DNA of 41,339 nucleotides. It comes from a virus. The notes under the pieces were generated by a model that was not told the origin of the DNA, made no database searches, and saw nothing but the letters and a program-made list of their open reading frames with translations. This document shows, piece by piece, positions 3,759 to 41,339 of this stretch. The stretch's first letter is position 1, and each line of letters starts with the position of its first letter. The position numbers and the translations under genes were made by a program. The stretch is from positions 1-41,339 of IMG/VR virus record IMGVR_UViG_3300033144_001492; one strand, written 5' to 3'.

Positions 3759-5828
3759 ATGACTGACATCACCAAAGGATTCGAGATTCTCGCAAACACG
3801 ATTGCAAAAGGAGAAAACGGAAGACATCAAGACTATGCGAGAACGGTTCTTCTTGCAGACACATACAAGAAACTAATCACTGGAGAGAACATCGCATCAC
3901 TTCTGATTCAATTCACTCCACGAGAATCGAAAGAACAGTTCGCACAACGATTGAGATTGACACAGTCAGTCACTCCACAAATGTCCGAGAAGATAATCAA
4001 TCCTTTTTACAAGGTCAGTCGAATCGACAACATCAACAAACAACTGGTCTGGAAGATGGAAAATCCAGAAAGAACAGAACTCCTTCACAAGACCATCGAA
4101 ACGTTTTATGGTGATGAAACACTTGACGATTTTATGGAAACCAGATTCACACAGTTGTCGTTCACCGATGCAAATGCGTTTCTGGTTGTCGAGTTTGACC
4201 AGTTCAACGCAAAGACACAGAACGCGAAACCATATCCGATGGAAGTGTCATCGAAACAAGCAGTCAATTTCAAATACCAGAACAACGTTCTCCAGTGGTT
4301 GATTGTTAAAAAGGAAATTCAATACAAGGTCATAAATGATTCAAAGGTTTCACACCGTGAAGGACATCAGTTCAGAATCTATTTGCCGAATCAAATCATC
4401 GTTCTGAATCAAATCGACTCCAGAATCAATGGACGCGAGTTCAGAGATATCGACATCACAGAAGTTGAAGAATCAACAAAGGTGCGAATCAACAACCAGA
4501 CATTTGAGATTCAAGTGTTCAGTCCGAACGCTGGTGAAGTTCAAGCAATTCGCATCGGATATAAACGCGACACGGAAACAGAAGGTCGAACGTATGTGAA
4601 TCCATTCCATCCAGCGTTGTCCAGATTTATGAAGTCAATCAAGTCAGTGAGTGAATTCGATATCACAACAACTGCACACGTCTTTCCACAGAAATTGCAG
4701 TATGTTGAAGCGTGTCGAGGAACAGAAGATTCAACGTGTAATCACGGAAACGATATCAACGGAAAGGTCTGCGAATCGTGTGGTGGTTCTGGAATCATCA
4801 TTCACAAGACTGCGAGTGATTCCATCACGTTGCCACTTCCGAAACGTAAAGAAGAAATGCTCGACCTCGACAAACTTCTTGTCTATAAAGCACCACCAGT
4901 TGATTTGATTAAATTTCAAAAGGAATATGGCGATGACCTCGAACAGAAGTCCTTGACCGATGTGTTCGTTTCAGTTTCAATGTCCAGAGTCACTGGTTCA
5001 ATGACTGCAACCGAGAAGACGATTGATATGGAATCAGTCTATGACACACTCCTTCCCTATGCGAATAAGTACTCAACCGTCTGGAAGAAGATGGTTCGAC
5101 TCTCTGCAACATTCACAGACACGAACAAAGGTGGTCTGATAGTTCGACACAACTTTCCAAAGGACTTCAAGATGAAAACGGTGAACGCACTGTTGAATGA
5201 TTTGACAGAGGCGAAGAACAGTGACGCACCAGAGTTCTTGAAGACAGAAATCGCACAAGACATCGCAGTCAAAATCTATGCGAACAGTCCAGAGTCCTTG
5301 AAGAAATACAAGATTAAACAACAACACATTCCGTTCAAAGGAAAATCACCGATGGAAATTCAACTGGTGATGAACTCCGAACTGACTCCAAAGGATGATA
5401 AAATTTTATACGCGAACTTTGAATCAATCATCACTGAACTGGAGAAAGAATTCATCGCAGAACAGAAGAACTTCTTTGACCTTCCATTCGACAAGAGAGA
5501 AGAGGAACTCAACAAGAAGGTGAAAGCATATCGAGAACGAATCAGAACAGAAGAACTTGACGAAACTGCGTCCGTGATGTTCGGTGTTGAAGATGGTGAA
5601 GATGTTGCACCAGAAGAGATTGCGACTCCAGTTGATATTGAAGCAGAGGCAAAAGCAAAACTGAAAGGAACAGTCGGTGGAATCACTGCAATCATCGGAA
5701 TCAACAGTGCAGTTGCACGAGGTGAAATGACTGAAAGTTCTGCGAAAGAACTTCTCGTTCAAATCTTTGGTTTCACACAAGACATCGCAGACATTCTGAT
5801 TGACAAACCAGAATCGTTGAATGGCTGA
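3759..5828 (+). CDS. portal protein with an internal zinc-ribbon-like insert
   Basis: This 689-residue protein lies between TerL and a MuF-like protein, the usual portal position. Its length, and stretches such as MSEKIINPFYKVSRIDNINK and FVSVSMSRVTGSMTATEKTID, fit a portal, the dodecameric ring through which DNA enters the head. An unusual feature is a four-cysteine segment at about 319-341 (C319, C327, C338, C341). Its second half, CESCGGSG, is exactly the CxxCxGxG pattern of DnaJ zinc domains. The C-terminal 100 residues are acidic and helical. The gene end overlaps the next gene by 8 bases. The portal call rests on context and size; the cysteines are read directly. Confidence 0.8.
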   Translation: MTDITKGFEILANTIAKGENGRHQDYARTVLLADTYKKLITGENIASLLIQFTPRESKEQFAQRLRLTQSVTPQMSEKIINPFYKVSRIDNINKQLVWKMENPERTELLHKTIETFYGDETLDDFMETRFTQLSFTDANAFLVVEFDQFNAKTQNAKPYPMEVSSKQAVNFKYQNNVLQWLIVKKEIQYKVINDSKVSHREGHQFRIYLPNQIIVLNQIDSRINGREFRDIDITEVEESTKVRINNQTFEIQVFSPNAGEVQAIRIGYKRDTETEGRTYVNPFHPALSRFMKSIKSVSEFDITTTAHVFPQKLQYVEACRGTEDSTCNHGNDINGKVCESCGGSGIIIHKTASDSITLPLPKRKEEMLDLDKLLVYKAPPVDLIKFQKEYGDDLEQKSLTDVFVSVSMSRVTGSMTATEKTIDMESVYDTLLPYANKYSTVWKKMVRLSATFTDTNKGGLIVRHNFPKDFKMKTVNALLNDLTEAKNSDAPEFLKTEIAQDIAVKIYANSPESLKKYKIKQQHIPFKGKSPMEIQLVMNSELTPKDDKILYANFESIITELEKEFIAEQKNFFDLPFDKREEELNKKVKAYRERIRTEELDETASVMFGVEDGEDVAPEEIATPVDIEAEAKAKLKGTVGGITAIIGINSAVARGEMTESSAKELLVQIFGFTQDIADILIDKPESLNG

Positions 5829-6765
5829 TTTTGACAAGATACAAAAACGGAAAGACAAGTTTCTTGAAGACCGTGAATCCGTTCTAAAAAAGAAGGTGAC
5901 TGGTGCAGAGAAGAAACTTCTCGACTTAATCTTCAAAGACTTTCTGGACAAACTCGAAACATCAGACGGAAAGATTGTGTCATCTGGAAAGAATATCACA
6001 TTGACACAAGCAATCGACAAAATCTTCAAGACCTTTGAATCCAGAATCAATGCGAATCTGGTCAAAGACTATGTGAACGACATCAAGAAAATCGGTTCGT
6101 TGAATGAATCCTATTTCAAAATATTTGAACCGAACGCAAAGAAGTTCAAAGGAATCAAAGATTCTGCACAGAAAGGAATCTTCACACGACTCGGTCTGAA
6201 CTCTGATGGTAAATTGAAGAGAGGTGGATTCCTCGCAGAGTTCTTGACAGACAACAGACAGAAACGTCAACTGAAAACAATGGTGACGGATGCAATCACC
6301 AGTGGTCAAGGATTCAGTCAACTTCGTGAAGCAGTCCAGACATTGACAGTCGGCAACAAGCAAGTTCAAGGACAGTTGCAATCGAACTATCGTCAATTCG
6401 TTTACGATACTTATTCACAAATCGACAGATTCGAGTCTGGTCTTTACGCAGACGCAATCGGAATGGATGCGTTCAAGTATGCTGGTGGAAAGATTCGAAC
6501 CACACGGAAATTCTGTTGTCAGAGGAACGGACAAATCTTCACAGTGCAAGAAGCAGAGAAGTGGCAATCACTTCGATTCGAAGGAAAGACAAAGAACTAC
6601 AATCCGTTGATTGACTTGGGTGGATATAATTGCAGACACTCCACGCAATATCTTTCGAACATAATCACTGCACGAAGACGGAAAGATTTGACGTTGAACA
6701 AGGACGGAAAACTGGTCAAAGTCAAAGGAGAAAGGAAACCGAAACTGAATTCTGGTTGTCGGTAG
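5821..6765 (+). CDS. MuF-like minor head protein (head morphogenesis)
   Basis: A 314-residue protein following the portal. Its C-terminal third carries the MuF/SPP1 gp7 signature: RTTRKFCCQRNGQIF, then EKWQSLRF, then NPLIDLGGYNCRHS, with paired cysteines and the final G-x-N-C-R-H. The N-terminal two thirds are helical and basic. In related phages this protein binds the portal and is packaged inside the head. It overlaps the portal gene end. After it comes a long gene-free stretch, so it probably ends a transcription unit. Confidence 0.85.
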   Translation: MADFDKIQKRKDKFLEDRESVLKKKVTGAEKKLLDLIFKDFLDKLETSDGKIVSSGKNITLTQAIDKIFKTFESRINANLVKDYVNDIKKIGSLNESYFKIFEPNAKKFKGIKDSAQKGIFTRLGLNSDGKLKRGGFLAEFLTDNRQKRQLKTMVTDAITSGQGFSQLREAVQTLTVGNKQVQGQLQSNYRQFVYDTYSQIDRFESGLYADAIGMDAFKYAGGKIRTTRKFCCQRNGQIFTVQEAEKWQSLRFEGKTKNYNPLIDLGGYNCRHSTQYLSNIITARRRKDLTLNKDGKLVKVKGERKPKLNSGCR

Positions 6766-6850
6766 ATTCAGAACAAAAATCTGCGATTCTCGATTCAACA
6801 GAATAATTGTCTGAATCAAGGTCAAAACTCAAACACACTCCAGTTCTCGT

Positions 6851-6970
6851 TTTAATGCGTTCTAATGAACGAACGGTGTTCCATAGCGTAACCACAACAG
6901 ACCACCAGAGTTCGTCAATGTCTTTGTGGTCTTGACATCCAGAGGTGATTTGTTAGGAATTTAACATTCC
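6851..6970 (+). ncRNA. structured noncoding element, copy 1 of a two-copy motif
   Basis: The 6766-7029 interval has no gene. It contains GAACGAACGGTGTT (6867-6880) and TTGAnnnCCAGAGG (6932-6945), both repeated at similar spacing at 28399 and 28467. Local hairpins are CGTTC/GAACG at 6859-6872 with loop TAAT, GACCAC (6900-6905) with GTGGTC (6926-6931), and GGAAT/ATTCC at 6956-6970. Conservation of blocks with variable spacers suggests a conserved RNA or a protein-binding DNA site. Strand and ends are uncertain. Confidence 0.5.
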
Positions 6971-7029
6971 ATTAAAAAAGAATTTCAACATTGAGAAAAT
7001 AAAATTTTGAATTTCGTTTTTTTTTACCT

Positions 7030-7037
7030 TACATTTG
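7030..7037 (+). promoter_or_regulatory. promoter before the scaffold and capsid genes
   Basis: TACATTTG followed by CTATTC matches TAnnTTTG exactly. A TTTTG about 25 bases upstream could be the -33 element. It drives the genes from 7070 onward, which include the scaffold and major capsid, so it is expected to be strong late in infection. Confidence 0.65.
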
Positions 7038-7069
7038 CTATTCAAATCAACAACAAAAATGAAAAAATT

Positions 7070-7399
7070 ATGTCAAATATAATTGCATCAAGAAACGGAA
7101 TAAAAAAAGAATTTTCGGAAATCGGATGGAAACTTCTCGGAGAAAACAAAAACGGATGGACTGTGATTCCGACAGAAGCACAGAAAAAATCTGGTGGAGA
7201 AAAAACACAGAACGCAGAAAATTCACAAGACTTGAATCCGAATGTTCCTCGTTCAAATGACGATGGAATGAACGTTGATTCTGCGATGAAATCCATCAAG
7301 GAAATGAAAACGATTGAAGAGGTGAAGTCATTTGTTGAAGGAGAAAAACGAGTGACTGTGATTCGTGCTGGTGAAAAAAGAATCAACGAATTAAAATAA
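7070..7399 (+). CDS. small head-region protein, unknown function
   Basis: A 109-residue protein starting MSNIIASRNGIKKEFSEIGW. Upstream in-frame starts lie inside or before the promoter, so the first ATG downstream of the promoter in this frame is chosen. The middle is low-complexity and polar. The C-terminal 40 residues (IKEMKTIEEVKSFVEGEKR, then ending INELK) look like a small helical fold seen in phage proteins next to capsid genes, with the general shape of a HeH/LEM-like motif. That resemblance is weak. It sits between the minor head protein and the scaffold, so a head role is likely. Confidence 0.6.
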   Translation: MSNIIASRNGIKKEFSEIGWKLLGENKNGWTVIPTEAQKKSGGEKTQNAENSQDLNPNVPRSNDDGMNVDSAMKSIKEMKTIEEVKSFVEGEKRVTVIRAGEKRINELK

Positions 7400-27315: not shown

Positions 27316-27810
27316 ATGGAGAAATTATCAAAAAATCTGTCACTCTCGGAAGTGACGAAGTCGAACACTGCAACAAGAAACGGAATCGACAACAGTCCAA
27401 CAGACGAACATCTGGAGAATCTGAAAGCAATCGCAGAGAACATCTTTCAACCGATGCGTGACGAACTCGGTGCAATCACCGTGTCTTCTGGATATCGTTC
27501 AAACGAATTGAACAAGCGAATCGGTGGTGCGTACAAGACAATCGGTGGAAAGTATGTTGCAACATCACAACACTGCAAAGGTGAAGCACTTGACCTTGAC
27601 AACGACCACAAGACTGGACGTGCAACCAATCGAGAAATCTTCGATAATATCAAAGACAATCTGGAATTCGACCAGTTGATTTCTGAATTCGGAACGAGAG
27701 AAAATCCATCGTGGGTTCACGTTTCCTTCAAGAAGGATGGTGGAAATCGTGGTGTCGTTCTTCGAGCAGAAAGGAATTCAAGTGGTAAAACATACTATTC
27801 AAATTATTGA
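27316..27810 (+). CDS. M15-family peptidase endolysin
   Basis: 164 residues and a single peptidase domain, which cuts peptide bonds in peptidoglycan at lysis. Diagnostic residues are TVSSGYRS at 55-62, H86 and D93 in SQHCKGEALDLD, and H135 in WVHVSF. H86, D93 and H135 are the zinc ligands of the M15_3 group. There is no signal peptide, so it needs a holin to cross the membrane; one is encoded immediately downstream. It begins after the leader AAAAGCAAAGCAAAATG. Confidence 0.9.
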   Translation: MEKLSKNLSLSEVTKSNTATRNGIDNSPTDEHLENLKAIAENIFQPMRDELGAITVSSGYRSNELNKRIGGAYKTIGGKYVATSQHCKGEALDLDNDHKTGRATNREIFDNIKDNLEFDQLISEFGTRENPSWVHVSFKKDGGNRGVVLRAERNSSGKTYYSNY

Positions 27811-27811
27811 A

Positions 27812-28279
27812 ATGGGCGATTATAAAGAAAAAAAAGGAACAACAAGAGTCGGTGATTTTTTGAGGGGTGCGAAGAGTGTTGCACCAGACTTGCTGAATCT
27901 TGTCGGAAACATCACTGGAGTTGATATGCTGAAGAACATCGGAAACTCAATCAAAGGTGACAAGAACCTCTCTCCAGAGGACAAGGAAACTGCGTTGAAA
28001 CTTCTGGAACTGGATGTGATTGAAGCACAAGAAGTGTCGAAGAGGTGGTCATCTGATATGCAATCCGATTCGTGGTTGTCGAAGAATGTTCGACCATTGA
28101 CGTTGATGTTTTTAATCTTGTTCACATCATTTGTCATCGTCACCGATAGCAAAACGGAGTGGAATTTCGAAGTTCGAGAAAGTTATATTCAACTTTTGGA
28201 GTCACTTTTGTTGACAGTTATTGTTGCGTATTTTGGTTCAAGAGGAATGGAGAAGTATAAAAAAATCAAAAAAGACTGA
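27812..28279 (+). CDS. 3-TM holin-like protein
   Basis: 155 residues. The upstream in-frame start would overlap the endolysin, so the ATG just after its stop is used. The first half is soluble (RVGDFLRGAKSVAPDLLNLV, then KNLSPEDKETALKLLELD). Then the pattern SWLSKNVRPLTLMFLILFTS, a hydrophobic hairpin, and a last span (LLESLLLTVIVAYFG) ending in lysines match the holin-of-3-TMs family used in phage and gene-transfer-agent release. It forms the lysis pair with the peptidase. Confidence 0.8.
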   Translation: MGDYKEKKGTTRVGDFLRGAKSVAPDLLNLVGNITGVDMLKNIGNSIKGDKNLSPEDKETALKLLELDVIEAQEVSKRWSSDMQSDSWLSKNVRPLTLMFLILFTSFVIVTDSKTEWNFEVRESYIQLLESLLLTVIVAYFGSRGMEKYKKIKKD

Positions 28280-28339
28280 TTTATTTTCAGTCAAAATGAA
28301 AGAAATTTCACACAAAAAAGTGGTGTTTTTTCTATACAA

Positions 28340-28573
28340 TTTACAAAAAAGTGCGAAAATCGGAAACGTCCGTGAAGCTACTTTTTAAGCGATTTAACGA
28401 ACGAACGGTGTTGTGTAGTATAAGACCATCGAAAAAAATAGTTAAGCGATTTGCTTTTGTAACTCGTTGAAAACCAGAGGACTGACCTCTCAAAAAACAG
28501 ACAATTTTTCTCCAGCAATTTCGATTGCTTTGCTTTGATTGACCACCTCATTTTGGGGTGGTCTTTCTTTTTT
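28340..28573 (+). ncRNA. candidate structured RNA A (copy 2 of the noncoding motif)
   Basis: This stretch has no gene. TTTTCTATACA at about 28329, repeated before RNA B, may mark a promoter. Within it, GAACGAACGGTGTT (28399-28412) and TTGAAAACCAGAGG (28467-28480) match the element near 6867. TTAAGCGATTT occurs twice, at 28385 and 28442. Hairpins seen are AGAGG/CCTCT (28476-28490) and AGCAAT-TTCG-ATTGCT (28514-28529), a UUCG tetraloop. A terminator ends it. Confidence 0.55.
28541..28573 (+). terminator. terminator of RNA A
   Basis: GACCACC pairs with GGTGGTC over a 9-base loop (TCATTTTGG), followed by TTTC and a T run. Confidence 0.85.
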
Positions 28574-28631
28574 CTACTATAAGGTAAAAAAATAGTTGTT
28601 AAAAAATTAGGAAGTAATATATCTTTTTCTA

Positions 28632-28639
28632 TACATTTG
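28632..28639 (+). promoter_or_regulatory. promoter for RNA B
   Basis: TACATTTG fits TAnnTTTG. It is the only such site here not followed by CTA (TGAGG instead). It lies just upstream of a block of stable helices that ends in a terminator. Confidence 0.6.
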
Positions 28640-28999
28640 TGAGGTCATTAAGAAATGGCAATCGTTCTTTAAATTACTGGTAATGCGTTGAGAATCAAGG
28701 AGTTAAGTGTTTCGACACTGACTCAACAGACTGAACCTCAACAAGTTACAAGGCAAACGTTTGACGGTCATCGTATTAAAACCGTAATGTCAGAACACTT
28801 GACGAATCTGGAACAGACATAGTTCAGAAAGATGAAAAAGTGTTGCAAGTGTTTTGACTCTGGGTGCGATGAACACTCTTCTGCCAATCTAAGCTACAAG
28901 ACGCACTGTCGAATAAAAGCAAACGAGGACATCACAGACAAATCATCAAGACTCTAAATAAGAGGACAAGCCGACATCGTAAATGATGTCGGCTTTTTT
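28640..28999 (+). ncRNA. candidate structured RNA B, about 350 nt, unclassified
   Basis: No reading frame is credible. Several strong helices are visible. A 13-bp pairing, with one G-U, joins GTCAGAACACTTG (28789-28801) with CAAGTGTTTTGAC (28846-28858); inside it, TCTG-g-AAC (28807-28814) pairs with GTTCAGA (28822-28828). GAGT and GTGT form a hairpin with UUCG loop (28700-28724). TTAAGAA pairs with TTCTTTAA (28648-28672). GTTGAG (28687) pairs with CTCAAC (28737). GGTGCG (28863) pairs with CGCACT (28902). CTCT pairs with AGAG (28952-28964). It is bounded by a promoter and a terminator. I do not match it to tmRNA, RNase P or 6S. Confidence 0.7.
28968..28999 (+). terminator. terminator of RNA B
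   Basis: AAGCCGACATC pairs perfectly with GATGTCGGCTT around a 6-base loop, then TTTTTT. It is a textbook intrinsic terminator. Confidence 0.95.
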
Positions 29000-29039
29000 A
29001 GGTGAAAACAAAATGAAATATTAATCAAAATCAAATCAA

Positions 29040-29684
29040 ATGAAAATTTTAAAACAAGCAATCACAGTTGAAGCAATAAGAACAACACAGAGAGATTGTG
29101 ACAGTCAAAACATTGAAGTCAAATTCACATCTGGAGAACAATGGAAAACAGTTTGTGGACATATCAACCACCGAACGAACTTTGTTCATCTGACTGCAAA
29201 TGAAGAGGCACAAGAACGTGAACTGGAAAACTGGAACATTGAACTGGATGACATTGTCACAATGATTGAGAGCAGAGAAATCGAACTCGGAACTGATTTC
29301 GAATTGAGTCATTCCAGAGAACGCACCAGACAATCGACTGTTGACAATGATTTCCAGAAACCAGAGAAGTTTTCAGAAAACTGGTGGAAAGAAAAACGGA
29401 ATGAATTCATCAAATTTTTGACACCACTGCACAATGCAGAAATGGAGTTCGAAGATATGTTGTTCAATCATCTGGTGGACAGTGAAGTTCCAGCAACAAG
29501 ATTCGTGGAGTTCATCGGAGAAGGATTCGAGAAAGAAAGTTTGAGAGTTCAACTCGGTGAGTTCGGAATTCGAGGTGAAGCAGAAACAGAGTTGAAGAAG
29601 TTCCACAAATCGAATCTGGTTCAATTCCTCTTCGATGACGGAAACTTTCACATCACAGTTGACAACCGACTGTTGACAACATAA
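29040..29684 (+). CDS. early-region protein, unknown function
   Basis: 214 residues, acidic, helical, with no signal or membrane segment. N-terminal strands (MKILKQAITVEAIRT, then VKFTSGEQWKTVCGHINHRT) are followed by a long helical region with FSENWWKEKRNEFIKFLTPL. It begins after AAATCAAATCAAATG and opens the region of small early genes. A hairpin follows. I do not recognise the family. Confidence 0.6.
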   Translation: MKILKQAITVEAIRTTQRDCDSQNIEVKFTSGEQWKTVCGHINHRTNFVHLTANEEAQERELENWNIELDDIVTMIESREIELGTDFELSHSRERTRQSTVDNDFQKPEKFSENWWKEKRNEFIKFLTPLHNAEMEFEDMLFNHLVDSEVPATRFVEFIGEGFEKESLRVQLGEFGIRGEAETELKKFHKSNLVQFLFDDGNFHITVDNRLLTT

Positions 29685-37563: not shown

Positions 37564-37628
37564 GAGCAATTAAAATAATATATTATACCATCTTTCCAGA
37601 AAAGTTGAAGCATAAGCACAAGAAATGA
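37560..37628 (+). CDS. 22-residue mini-ORF linking to queD
   Basis: It begins within the stop region of the preceding gene and ends in ATGA with queD. The peptide starts MRAIKIIYYTIFPEK and ends in a lysine/histidine tail. It could be a coupling leader rather than a working protein, but the two-sided overlap is the same as for the larger genes. Confidence 0.35.
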   Translation: MRAIKIIYYTIFPEKLKHKHKK

Positions 37629-38170
37629 GTCAAACCATCACCAGACCATTTGAGTTCGATTCTGCGCATCGTGTGATGAATCAAAAATTCAAGTGTTACA
37701 ACTTGCACGGTCACAGATATCGTGCAGAATTGACGTTCTTCTTCGTTGAGGTTGAGGAAATCGGATATCAAATCGACTTCTCTGAAATAAAACGCATCGG
37801 TGGACAGTGGATTGATGACCACCTCGACCACGCAATCATCTTGAATCCAGAAGATAAATCGATTTTAAAGGTCTGTGACGAACTTTCTTCTCGGTTCTGG
37901 ACAATGAGTCTGAACGGTGAAAGATATTGCAATCCGACTGTCGAGAATGTGTCAAAAGAAGTGTTTCTTGCAATCTCAACATTGTTCGACCACGAATCAA
38001 AACTGATTTTGACGGAAGTGAAGTTGTTCGAAACTCCGAACTGTTGGACAATATGCACCAGAAAGTCCATCACAACAGAAGAAGAAGAAAATTTCTTTGT
38101 GAAGAACTATGTTTCTTTAAAAGATTATCAAAAGAAGAAAGGACAAATTCAATACGATGACAGATTTTGA
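37625..38170 (+). CDS. queD: QueD, 6-carboxy-tetrahydropterin synthase
   Basis: This enzyme converts 7,8-dihydroneopterin triphosphate to 6-carboxy-tetrahydropterin, the first committed step to preQ0. Zinc ligands are H15 (FDSAHR), H28 and H30 (NLHGH). The catalytic cysteine is C24, directly before YNLHGH. DFSEIK, LDHAIIL, PTVEN and ETPN follow as in the family. At 181 residues it is longer than the usual about 120, with an insert after the first third and a charged C-terminal tail. It is joined by ATGA overlaps to its neighbours. Its substrate needs FolE, not seen here. Confidence 0.93.
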   Translation: MSQTITRPFEFDSAHRVMNQKFKCYNLHGHRYRAELTFFFVEVEEIGYQIDFSEIKRIGGQWIDDHLDHAIILNPEDKSILKVCDELSSRFWTMSLNGERYCNPTVENVSKEVFLAISTLFDHESKLILTEVKLFETPNCWTICTRKSITTEEEENFFVKNYVSLKDYQKKKGQIQYDDRF

Positions 38171-38339
38171 ACGCATATTTGCACAAGGTTATGAACAAGG
38201 ACAGAAAGACTTGATTCAGACAATCAAAGACCGAATCAATGGAGTCGTTGACAAATCAGACACGAATCAGATGTCAGATTGTCTGTTGTTGTTGCTACAA
38301 ATAACACCATCAGAACAAAAAAATGAAACAGAGGAATGA
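38157..38339 (+). CDS. 60-residue protein between queD and queE
   Basis: A helical, acidic protein: MTDFERIFAQGYEQGQKDLI, then KDRINGVVDKSDTNQMSDCL, then a leucine-rich turn and NETEE. It overlaps queD by 14 bases and queE by 17. The full overlap on both sides and its conserved-style sequence argue that it is a component of the pathway, for example a small partner of QueD or QueE. It might equally be an unrelated passenger. No known homologue is recognised. Confidence 0.55.
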   Translation: MTDFERIFAQGYEQGQKDLIQTIKDRINGVVDKSDTNQMSDCLLLLLQITPSEQKNETEE

Positions 38340-39057
38340 CATATCAGTCGCAGAATGGTTCTATTCTGTGCAAGGTGAAGGAATCACCAGTGGAACACCA
38401 TCAATCTTCTTGCGTCTTGCTGGATGCAATCTGTTGTGTGGTCGAAATGACGCAACGTGGACGTGTGACTCAATCGAGGTCTGGAAGAATGGTCAAACAT
38501 TCAACGTCTTTGAACTGATTCGGAAGATGAACAACGACATCGCACTGTTCAATCGTCTGAAACACGCAAATCTGGTCATCACTGGTGGAGAACCACTTCA
38601 ACAACAACAATCTCTGTGTGTCTTTCTGCACGAAATCCGAGAACTGACAAGCGAGAGAGGTCACAATGTGGTCGTTGAGGTCGAAACAAACGGAACAATC
38701 ACACCATCAATGGAACTGAACTCTCTTGTCAACATCTGGAATGTGTCACCGAAACTGTCAAACTCTGGAGAACCTATCAAAAAACGATTCAATCTGGACG
38801 CAGTTCGCATCTTTAACGCATCGAACAAAGCACAATGGAAGTTCGTTGTCACCAGACACGATGACTTGAAGGAAATCATCGCAGAATGGTGTCCAGTGAT
38901 TGAAGATGAAACAATGATTCAACTGATGTCTGGTGCAGATAATCGGAAAGACCTTGACAAAATGAATCAATGGTTGATTAAAAAGTGTTTGATTTATGGA
39001 TTCAGATTCACAAATCGACTCCAGATTCAAGTGTGGAACGAAAAAACTGGAATATGA
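38323..39057 (+). CDS. queE: QueE, radical SAM 7-carboxy-7-deazaguanine synthase
   Basis: It makes 7-carboxy-7-deazaguanine from carboxy-tetrahydropterin with S-adenosylmethionine. EWFYSVQGEGITSGTPSIFL is the family opening. The 4Fe-4S cysteines are C35, C39 and C48 (GCNLLCG, then ATWTCDS); this wider spacing of the third cysteine is seen in phage and some bacterial QueE. NLVITGGEPL and VVVEVETNGT are the SAM and substrate loops. 244 residues is normal. Its stop overlaps queC as ATGA. Confidence 0.93.
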   Translation: MKQRNDISVAEWFYSVQGEGITSGTPSIFLRLAGCNLLCGRNDATWTCDSIEVWKNGQTFNVFELIRKMNNDIALFNRLKHANLVITGGEPLQQQQSLCVFLHEIRELTSERGHNVVVEVETNGTITPSMELNSLVNIWNVSPKLSNSGEPIKKRFNLDAVRIFNASNKAQWKFVVTRHDDLKEIIAEWCPVIEDETMIQLMSGADNRKDLDKMNQWLIKKCLIYGFRFTNRLQIQVWNEKTGI

Positions 39058-39722
39058 ATGGTTCAAAAGCAGTTGTCATCTTCTCTGGTGGACAAGACTC
39101 CACCACTTGTCTTGCGTGGTCACTTGAAAGATATTACATTGTCGAGTGCATCACGTTCGAATATGGACAGAAACACGCAATCGAAATCAATCAATCGAAG
39201 AAAATCTGTGCGAAATGGAACGTCAAACAGACGATTGTTGACCTTAAATTCCTCGACACTCTGGTTGATTCTGCACTCACATCGAACGGTGATGTGGACG
39301 AAATCACTGACAAAGGTCTTCCAGCGTCATTCGTTCCGAATAGGAATCAACTATTCATCACACTTGCACACGCATACGCACAGAAAATCGGTGCAGAAAC
39401 CATCGTCACTGGAGTATGTTCGCAAGACGCAAACGGATATCCAGACACCACAACAGAGTTCATCAACCACATTGAACGCACATCAAATCTCGGTTCTGAT
39501 GGTTGTGTGAAGATTGAAACACCACTTATCAACAAACTAAAGTTCGAAACTTTCCTTCTTGCAGACGAACTGGACTGTCTGGAAGATGTTCTGGAGTTGT
39601 CACACACTTGTTATAATGGAAACAGAACAGACCGTCATCCATACGGATATGGATGTGACGAATGTGGTGCGTGTAAACTTCGCAGAGAGGGGTTCAATTC
39701 GTTCCTAAACATTCAACAATGA
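39054..39722 (+). CDS. queC: QueC, preQ0 synthase
   Basis: An ATP-dependent enzyme that turns carboxy-deazaguanine into preQ0. The PP-loop SGGQDSTT is at 11-18. DLKFLDTLVDSALT and GLPASFVPNRNQLFITLAHA are the middle signatures. The zinc site is C186, C201, C204 and C207 (HTCYNG, then GCDECGACK). Length is 222 residues, normal. Upstream in-frame starts lie inside queE, so the ATG overlapping the queE stop is used. No QueF is seen, so preQ0 should be the end point. Confidence 0.93.
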   Translation: MNGSKAVVIFSGGQDSTTCLAWSLERYYIVECITFEYGQKHAIEINQSKKICAKWNVKQTIVDLKFLDTLVDSALTSNGDVDEITDKGLPASFVPNRNQLFITLAHAYAQKIGAETIVTGVCSQDANGYPDTTTEFINHIERTSNLGSDGCVKIETPLINKLKFETFLLADELDCLEDVLELSHTCYNGNRTDRHPYGYGCDECGACKLRREGFNSFLNIQQ

Positions 39723-40525
39723 AGATTTTCTTTGCTGGTTCTGACCTCACAAAATACGACAGACGAAAGACTCTGAATGACTCTGGTGTGAATCGGTTTC
39801 TATATTCTTTCCACTCCTTGAAACGGTTCTCGAAGGATGTGATGGAACACTGCAAGGTCGGAAAGGAACTCGGAGAAGAAATCTTTCTCGATTCTGGTGC
39901 GTTCTCTGGAATGACACAAGGAGTTCACATCGATATTCGTGACTATTGTGACACCATACATAAGAATCTGGACAATCTGTCTGTCTATGCGTCACTCGAT
40001 GTCATTGGTGACTATCACGGAACACAAAAGAACTTTGAATTTATGCAATCAGAAGGACTCGAACCACTGATGACATTCCACATCGGTTCTCCATTCTCTA
40101 TTCTGGAAGAAATGGTCACACAAACTGACTATCTTGCAATCGGTGGTCTGGTCGGCAAACCGAAACTGATGGTCAAAAGGTTTCTGGAGAAGTGTTTCTC
40201 AATCATCAGAACAGATGCAAAGGTTCACGGATTCGGATTCACCTCTGTTCACGGTCTGAAAGCATATCCATTCTATTCGGTGGACTCGACAACGTGGTTC
40301 GGTGGTTCAATGAGAGCAGAAATCCACAAATATCACGATGGAAAAATCACATACATCAAAACAAAACGGAAAGACCACGCATCTGGAGAGTCAATGTGTT
40401 TCACAGATACTGGAGAAAACAAACTCTGGTTCGAAAGAAACGTTCAGAACGCAGTTGAGTGGATGAAATATGAACAATATCTGGATGAACTCTGGACAAA
40501 ACGAGGAATAAAATGGACAAAATGA
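39719..40525 (+). CDS. dpdA: DpdA-like DNA transglycosylase (TGT superfamily)
   Basis: A 268-residue TIM-barrel protein that probably swaps guanine in DNA for preQ0. LDSGAFSG (57-64) is the counterpart of the TGT catalytic motif DSGGFQ, with D58. ASLDVIGDY (91-99), IGGLVGKPK (141-149), VHGFGFTS (169-176) and SVDSTTW (187-193) follow as in phage DpdA. D189 may be the nucleophile. It is shorter than tRNA TGT and lacks the zinc-binding tail of that enzyme, as expected for DNA-acting forms. ATGA overlaps with queC and the next gene. Confidence 0.85.
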   Translation: MKIFFAGSDLTKYDRRKTLNDSGVNRFLYSFHSLKRFSKDVMEHCKVGKELGEEIFLDSGAFSGMTQGVHIDIRDYCDTIHKNLDNLSVYASLDVIGDYHGTQKNFEFMQSEGLEPLMTFHIGSPFSILEEMVTQTDYLAIGGLVGKPKLMVKRFLEKCFSIIRTDAKVHGFGFTSVHGLKAYPFYSVDSTTWFGGSMRAEIHKYHDGKITYIKTKRKDHASGESMCFTDTGENKLWFERNVQNAVEWMKYEQYLDELWTKRGIKWTK

Positions 40526-41187
40526 AAGTGAACAAAAGCAAATTCAAGATGATTCCACTGAAACAACTGTGGAAAGCACAATGGAACTACAAAGAAGACA
40601 ATCAAGAACAACTGAATCGTCTGGTGGAAAATATGAAACGCAACAATCAAGTGGAGAACATTCAAGTCAGAGAGGTTGAATCAGAAGATGGAAAGACATT
40701 CTTCGAGGTTATCAACGGAAACCACCGACTCGATGCGATGACCACCATCGGATTTCCGAGTGCGATGTGCTACAATCACGGACAGATTTCAGATGCACAA
40801 GCACAAAGAATCGCAATCGAAACAAATGAAACACGATTCCAGAACGATGGAACAAAGATGTCTGAACTGATTGCGTCATTCTCGAAGGATTTCTCGATGG
40901 AAGAACTCGCACAGACTCTTCCATTCACAGAAGAAGAAATCAACGGACACATCAATCTGTTGAACTACTCGTTTGATGATATCAACACAGACGGTGAAGA
41001 AGGTGAATTCAATCCGAACGCACCAGACAATCTGAAAACAATCAGAGTGACCGTTCCAGAAGAAACATTCAACCTCTGGACTCAATGGAAAGAGAGAATG
41101 AACGATGAACTCGGATATGACTCCGAAACAAAAGCAATCGAATTTGCGTTAATTGAAGCGATGAACACACCGACAATGTCAAAATAA
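40522..41187 (+). CDS. ParB/Srx-domain protein
   Basis: 221 residues. The N-terminus reads MIPLKQLWKAQWNYKEDNQE, then LVENMKRNNQ, VENIQVREVE, FFEVINGNHRLDAM, the beta strands plus the GNHR turn of ParB/sulfiredoxin domains. The later part is helical (ISDAQAQRIAIETNETRFQN, then SMEELAQTLPFTEEEINGHI), like the HTH half of ParB. The ATG nine bases downstream of the first one is used since it overlaps the dpdA stop as ATGA. ParB-type proteins bind or cut DNA with CTP or as nucleases. Here, next to dpdA, it may guide or partner DNA modification. Confidence 0.75.
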   Translation: MKVNKSKFKMIPLKQLWKAQWNYKEDNQEQLNRLVENMKRNNQVENIQVREVESEDGKTFFEVINGNHRLDAMTTIGFPSAMCYNHGQISDAQAQRIAIETNETRFQNDGTKMSELIASFSKDFSMEELAQTLPFTEEEINGHINLLNYSFDDINTDGEEGEFNPNAPDNLKTIRVTVPEETFNLWTQWKERMNDELGYDSETKAIEFALIEAMNTPTMSK

Positions 41188-41213
41188 TAATGTAATAAAT
41201 AAAACATAAAGCA

Positions 41214-41339
41214 ATGGAAATAGGTTCAATCTATAAAACAAACAAAGAAATAAAAGAACGTAAAGCCGAGTTAAAAAGGCGTAATAAAAAAAGACTTAGC
41301 CCAAAAGAAGTTAAAAAAAGGTTAATTGATTTTTTAAAA
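41214..41339 (+). CDS. small basic protein, runs off the window end
   Basis: At least 42 residues, starting MEIGSIYKTNKEIKERKAEL and very rich in K and R (RRNKKRL, VKKRLIDFLK). Codons TTA, GTT, AGC and GCC are unlike the modification genes, and the DNA is strongly AT-rich. The leader is A-rich with no ribosome box. It could be a small DNA-binding protein or regulator. The frame stays open to the last base. Confidence 0.5.
   Translation, partial: MEIGSIYKTNKEIKERKAELKRRNKKRLSPKEVKKRLIDFLK

Follow-up and report, generated by a model that had tools for sequence, protein, structure and literature searches.

A repeated, apparently lineage-specific noncoding element at the ends of two gene blocks in a virus that probably infects Bacteroidota

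The window analyzed here, a virus record of 41,339 bases, carries a noncoding element of about 100 nt in two related copies, both intergenic with respect to the main genes, in the same orientation and each trailing a gene block; the gap that harbors the first copy has an orthologue in a relative of this phage. The element is a genuine repeat, and it is the whole stretch of about 100 nt, not the 14-mer embedded in it, that makes the case. We tentatively read it as a lineage-specific, cis-acting control site at the borders of transcription units; a relic of spacer DNA that was copied once by recombination is almost as likely.

Two related copies in gaps between genes

Profile matches identify genes for the terminase, portal, holin, endolysin, a RecT-like protein, an exonuclease, a replication initiator-like protein and a ParB-like protein. 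The + strand carries all of the main genes and both copies of the element. The -7 motif TAnnTTTG, which is typical of Bacteroidota (promoter consensus: PMC7366714), is present in several intergenic gaps, and therefore the host is probably a member of the Bacteroidota.

The initial annotation described two conserved blocks in two gene-free regions. This description is borne out and can now be given exact positions (Table 1): the blocks are 51 nt apart in copy 1 and 54 nt apart in copy 2, and the weaker similarity that had been noticed around block 1 (GCG, TAA, TAG and ACCA) is present as well. Copy 1 lies in the gap between main genes at 6766-7070, 3' of the gene that follows the portal gene (5821-6765), and copy 2 lies in the gap at 28280-29039, 3' of the holin gene (27737-28279). 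The similarity extends beyond the two blocks over the full extents listed in Table 1, with the copies about 65% alike.

Table 1. Coordinates of the two copies of the element, their parts and neighboring features in the window
Feature	Position	Strand	Basis or remark
Copy 1 of the noncoding element (~100 nt)	about 6850-6945	+	alignment to copy 2; orthologue in L113
Copy 2 of the element	about 28382-28480	+	alignment, mutual best match, support from L113
Block 1 GAACGAACGGTGTT, copy 1	6867-6880	+	exact match to copy 2
Block 1 GAACGAACGGTGTT, copy 2	28399-28412	+	exact match to copy 1
Block 2 (TTGAnnnCCAGAGG), copy 1 form TTGACATCCAGAGG	6932-6945	+	
Block 2 (TTGAnnnCCAGAGG), copy 2 form TTGAAAACCAGAGG	28467-28480	+	
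Island TCAAACACACTCCAGTTCTC, just 5' of copy 1	6829-6848	+	identical in L113; absent from copy 2
Island GAGTTCGTCAATGTCTTTGTGG, within copy 1	6908-6929	+	20/22 identical in L113; absent from copy 2
Island TTTGTTAGGAATTTAACATTCCATTAAAAA, 3' of copy 1	6949-6978	+	conserved in L113
Bacteroidota-type promoter match, TTG ... TACATTTG (7030-7037)	7007-7037	+	downstream of copy 1
Intrinsic terminator hairpin, then TTTCTTTTTT	28541-28563	+	60 nt downstream of copy 2
-7 type promoter match TACATTTG	28632-28639	+	downstream of copy 2 and its terminator

A repeated 14-mer alone is unremarkable because direct repeats of 14 nt or longer number 93 in the window, a count that lends some credit to the view that the likeness of two AT-rich spacers, picked by eye, arose by chance. 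Such a coincidence is nevertheless very unlikely. Any 14-mer was shared by 13 of 3000 shuffled gap pairs, and a 14-mer accompanied by a spaced 7-mer by 2 of 3000; the alignment of the two copies over about 100 nt scores 25 compared to 11.0 +/- 1.6 for shuffled sequences, and none of 1000 shuffles reached the real score under each of three scoring schemes. A permissive scheme that aligned the full gaps with cheap gap extension gave a less impressive result, with 33 of 500 shuffles scoring as well; such gap extension rewards long gapped chains. When every tile of the window served as a control, each copy had the other as its best match, with the score of 25 followed by 18.5-19 for the next best.

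Independent support comes from L113, a contig of a relative in which the terminase and neighboring proteins are 80-87% identical to those of the window, and which carries a gap orthologous to that of copy 1. This contig, which covers the copy-1 place and is too short to reach the copy-2 place, played no part in defining the repeat. A profile built only from copy 1 retrieves copy 2 in the window with E = 1.2e-3, and adding L113 to the profile lowers this to E = 5.9e-5. When the 5' half (54 nt) of the element in L113 was slid along about 82,000 ungapped window positions on both strands, with the orthologous site excluded, the best match was copy 2 in exactly the expected register (32 of 54 positions identical; 31 and 30 for the next two). 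In this comparison, AAGCGATTTAA and GTATAAG stand out as common letters with equal spacing. Thus, the designation of a repeated noncoding element is supported by both the alignment statistics and the orthologue.

The comparison with L113 also indicates that the element is noncoding because the mismatches between copy 1 and L113 are spread evenly over the codon phases (14/17/17); in addition, the + strand frame is interrupted by stops in L113. A small + strand peptide (N-E-R-T-V) and minus-strand frames were considered as candidates and ruled out by the L113 stops and the even phase counts.

Location at apparent transcription-unit borders

Each copy follows a gene block and precedes a promoter match, and the two therefore seem to be placed where one transcription unit gives way to the next, on the transcribed strand. 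In the case of copy 2, an intrinsic terminator intervenes between the element and the promoter match (Table 1); a search for an intrinsic terminator near copy 1 found none.

Within the island 3' of copy 1, upstream of the promoter match at 7030, there is a palindrome, TGTTA-N6-TAACA (6951-6966). The stretch that contains it is identical to L113 at 29 of 30 positions, where the palindrome takes the form TGTTAA-N4-TTAACA, which makes it a possible operator candidate.

The region downstream of copy 2 includes a stretch, 28645-29000, that lies between the promoter match and an intrinsic terminator at 28968-28995 and folds far better than its shuffles (z -3.2, 0/100). It might be a leader or a noncoding RNA, and has no match in Rfam at the gathering score, in annotated phages or in the other loci compared. 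A 41-codon frame within it (28832-28957) reads MKKCCKCFDSGCDEHSSANLSYKTHCRIKANEDITDKSSRL and bears cysteines and histidines, so that the stretch may be a small-protein leader rather than purely noncoding.

Conservation in a relative and phyletic distribution

Copy 1 and its L113 orthologue align without a single indel over 205 nt, and the conservation along this alignment is patchy: 20 of 20 positions are identical upstream of the element and 29 of 30 downstream of it, compared to 3 of 15 in block 1. Such uneven conservation in the absence of indels suggests constraint. Block 1 is missing at the orthologous place in L113, with its flanks and TTGA....CAGAGG retained, and block 2 is represented there by TTGACGCACAGAGG; furthermore, L113 has GCGATTTAA and GTATAAG at exactly the register that they occupy in copy 2. 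The islands of copy 1 that are best conserved in L113 are not common to copy 2.

In the place of block 1, L113 carries a 12-nt sequence, ATGTCTTTCTGG, that recurs further on in an island of the same contig. The extended form ATGTCTTTCTGG(T/C)AT is found twice, at positions 7071-7085 and 7114-7128 of L113, 43 nt apart, and its presence in the place of block 1 may reflect a local copying event in L113. Block 1 is thus the part of the element that is best conserved between the copies in one genome and worst conserved between orthologues, a pattern that would fit either a relic, with a local event in L113 added, or paired sites whose sequences change in concert.

The element was found only in this phage, in L092 (the same phage in another contig) and in L113, that is, as far as the compared sequences go, in one lineage. 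Outside the window, the exact two-block pattern is present only in L092, and a degenerate pattern that covers all three sequences retrieved L092, L113 and, by chance, one RNA phage in the scan of viral contigs. A three-sequence model produced no match in 13 other virus records (7 terminase relatives and 6 holin relatives) or in the other loci compared, and annotated phages yielded only weak, short matches (E > 0.3). Relatives with terminase identity of 58% or below lack the element; in one of these, L130 (58%), there is no room for it because the next gene starts about 70 nt past the orthologous stop.

For the copy-2 place, two protein-anchored scans found no relatives that span it, nor did the gene at 29040-29684 when used as the query, and the holin scan recovered only relatives at 49-55% identity, in which the downstream sequence is devoid of the element. 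The expectation that the pattern would recur in related phages holds in part: the flanks and TTGA....CAGAGG are kept in L113, whereas block 1 is gone from its place there and distant relatives have no element at all. The two-block pattern was also sought at coding sites, where the initial annotation would have counted frequent matches against it; there are none in the window, and elsewhere matches occur at the chance level. A host origin was considered and rejected given that 3 two-block matches in 84,980 genomes are close to the number expected by chance (estimated at about 3.6); the single match in a Bacteroidetes genome falls inside a 949-aa ORF.

Possible functions and origins

Under the reading that we tentatively prefer, RNA polymerase finishing the upstream block would copy the element, which a phage or host factor would read in the nascent RNA or in duplex DNA; this putative factor would set how much transcription stops and how much runs on into the next block. 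A control site is favored because the similarity over about 100 nt is significant and L113 matches copy 2 in the predicted register, because both copies are on the main-gene strand and end gene blocks, because copy 2 precedes a terminator and a promoter match and copy 1 a promoter match only, and because the uneven conservation without indels is suggestive of constraint. This reading is weakened because no common RNA fold is supported and block 1 is lost in L113, because copy 2 lacks the islands that are most conserved in copy 1, and because just two phages have the element, with relatives at terminase identity of no more than 58% managing without it. If functional, this would be an unrecorded control element at gene-block borders of little-studied Bacteroidota phages, the transcription programs of which have hardly been mapped.

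The relic explanation, which comes close to the control site in likelihood, holds that a single recombination event between gene blocks duplicated a stretch of spacer, after which the copies drifted and the repeat has no present function. A perfect 14-mer and a 7-mer beside spacers of little similarity would not easily be left by neutral drift, although this is a weak argument from one pair, and the register of GCGATTTAA and GTATAAG in L113 also speaks against a relic. Conversely, the element is limited to one lineage, there are only two copies of modest similarity, and the phage encodes a RecT-like annealing protein and exonuclease VIII-like genes; moreover, L113 has the local repeat instead of block 1, and the islands that the orthologues have in common are not the blocks that unite the two copies. 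If the repeat is a relic, it illustrates how spacers are duplicated from one module border to another. On either reading the finding is a modest one, involving one lineage and three independent sequences.

A structured RNA or an RNA-processing site that acts at the transcript level, in line with the suggestion of the initial annotation, appears unlikely. Copy 2, located between the holin stop codon and an intrinsic terminator, is probably transcribed, but the copies fold no better than their shuffles (z -0.5 and -0.8), the consensus fold of the three sequences is weak (-2.6 kcal/mol in alifold), and Rfam returned nothing at the gathering threshold and only weak matches in a permissive search. 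Hence no common RNA fold is supported, and the "functional RNA or protein site" of that annotation is a candidate reading. L113 taken alone forms a helix, AACTTTGATG/CATCGGAGTT, at a probability of about 0.85, and the letters of the copies could pair as GGTG/CACC and GGTG/CATC; however, this covarying-looking helix (GGTG/CACC, GGTG/CATC, GATG/CATC) was rejected given its folding probability of about 0 in copy 1 and 0.01 in copy 2. The elements pair with the 28645-29000 transcript no better than shuffles do.

We consider slightly less likely still that the element is a DNA target of a phage protein that handles DNA, such as the replication initiator, the ParB-like protein or a component of packaging. 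Candidate partners are available, the replication initiator-like protein, the ParB-like protein and the terminase all being encoded, but the copies share no palindrome or iterons and adjoin neither the left-end genes that precede the large terminase gene nor the replication genes. In the L113 contig, the ParB-like gene is followed by one short extra frame and then by the left-end genes (window 40513-41339 and 1-245), so that the genome probably has a circular or circularly permuted map, and this counts in favor of a DNA site.

Similarly improbable, in our estimate, is the co-evolution of the two sites as a matched pair, with block 1 serving as a specificity segment that is identical at both places. 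A relative could then have a different block 1 and yet the same one at both places, as would be expected if a single, rapidly changing phage factor read both sites or if the sites were joined together.

Comparison with known repeated elements of phages

The nut sites of phage lambda (boxA/boxB) are two-part elements, present in two copies per genome, that are recognized in the nascent RNA. In contrast, the window copies have no boxB-like hairpin in register and none in common, and the likeness to boxA is a loose one, confined to GCGATTTAAC, with boxA-like matches being frequent throughout the window. Mosaic phages contain short conserved boundary sequences, repeated and noncoding, at the borders of gene modules, whereas here, in the two phages found to have the element, no shuffled modules and no boundary common to multiple phages were seen.

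The put sites of phage HK022 (putL/putR) are two related elements of about 70 nt per genome that are transcribed, noncoding and suppress termination (PMC9378689). The window element resembles them in that there are two related noncoding copies per phage genome. Unlike put RNAs, which consist of two defined stem-loops, the window copies have no supported common fold, and whereas put sites are downstream of early promoters, the window copies are in trailers, upstream of the nearest good promoter matches (7030 and 28632).

The SAS/ESAS sequences and stoperators of mycobacteriophages are short, phage-specific noncoding repeats at gene borders, and ESAS has a two-part structure with a variable spacer (PMC3203893). 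The window element is likewise a phage-specific noncoding repeat at gene borders, two-part and with a spacer that varies, but SAS, ESAS and stoperators are present in many copies per genome, with SAS located at gene starts, whereas the window element has two copies, away from start codons and without an inverted repeat pair. The put and SAS/ESAS sites are best regarded as analogies only because the window element appears to fail the tests that define them.

Other features of the genome

Profile matches also detect, at 37625-40525, QueD-, QueE- and QueC-like genes followed by a queuine transglycosylase-like gene, which probably comprise a 7-deazaguanine DNA or tRNA modification cluster. Finally, the two contigs of this phage, otherwise nearly identical, differ near the left end: compared to the window, L092 contains about 280 extra bases, with a small open frame, at about 113-120, between GCACCTAACG and ACGACTGAAC, a difference that can be attributed to a recent insertion or deletion.
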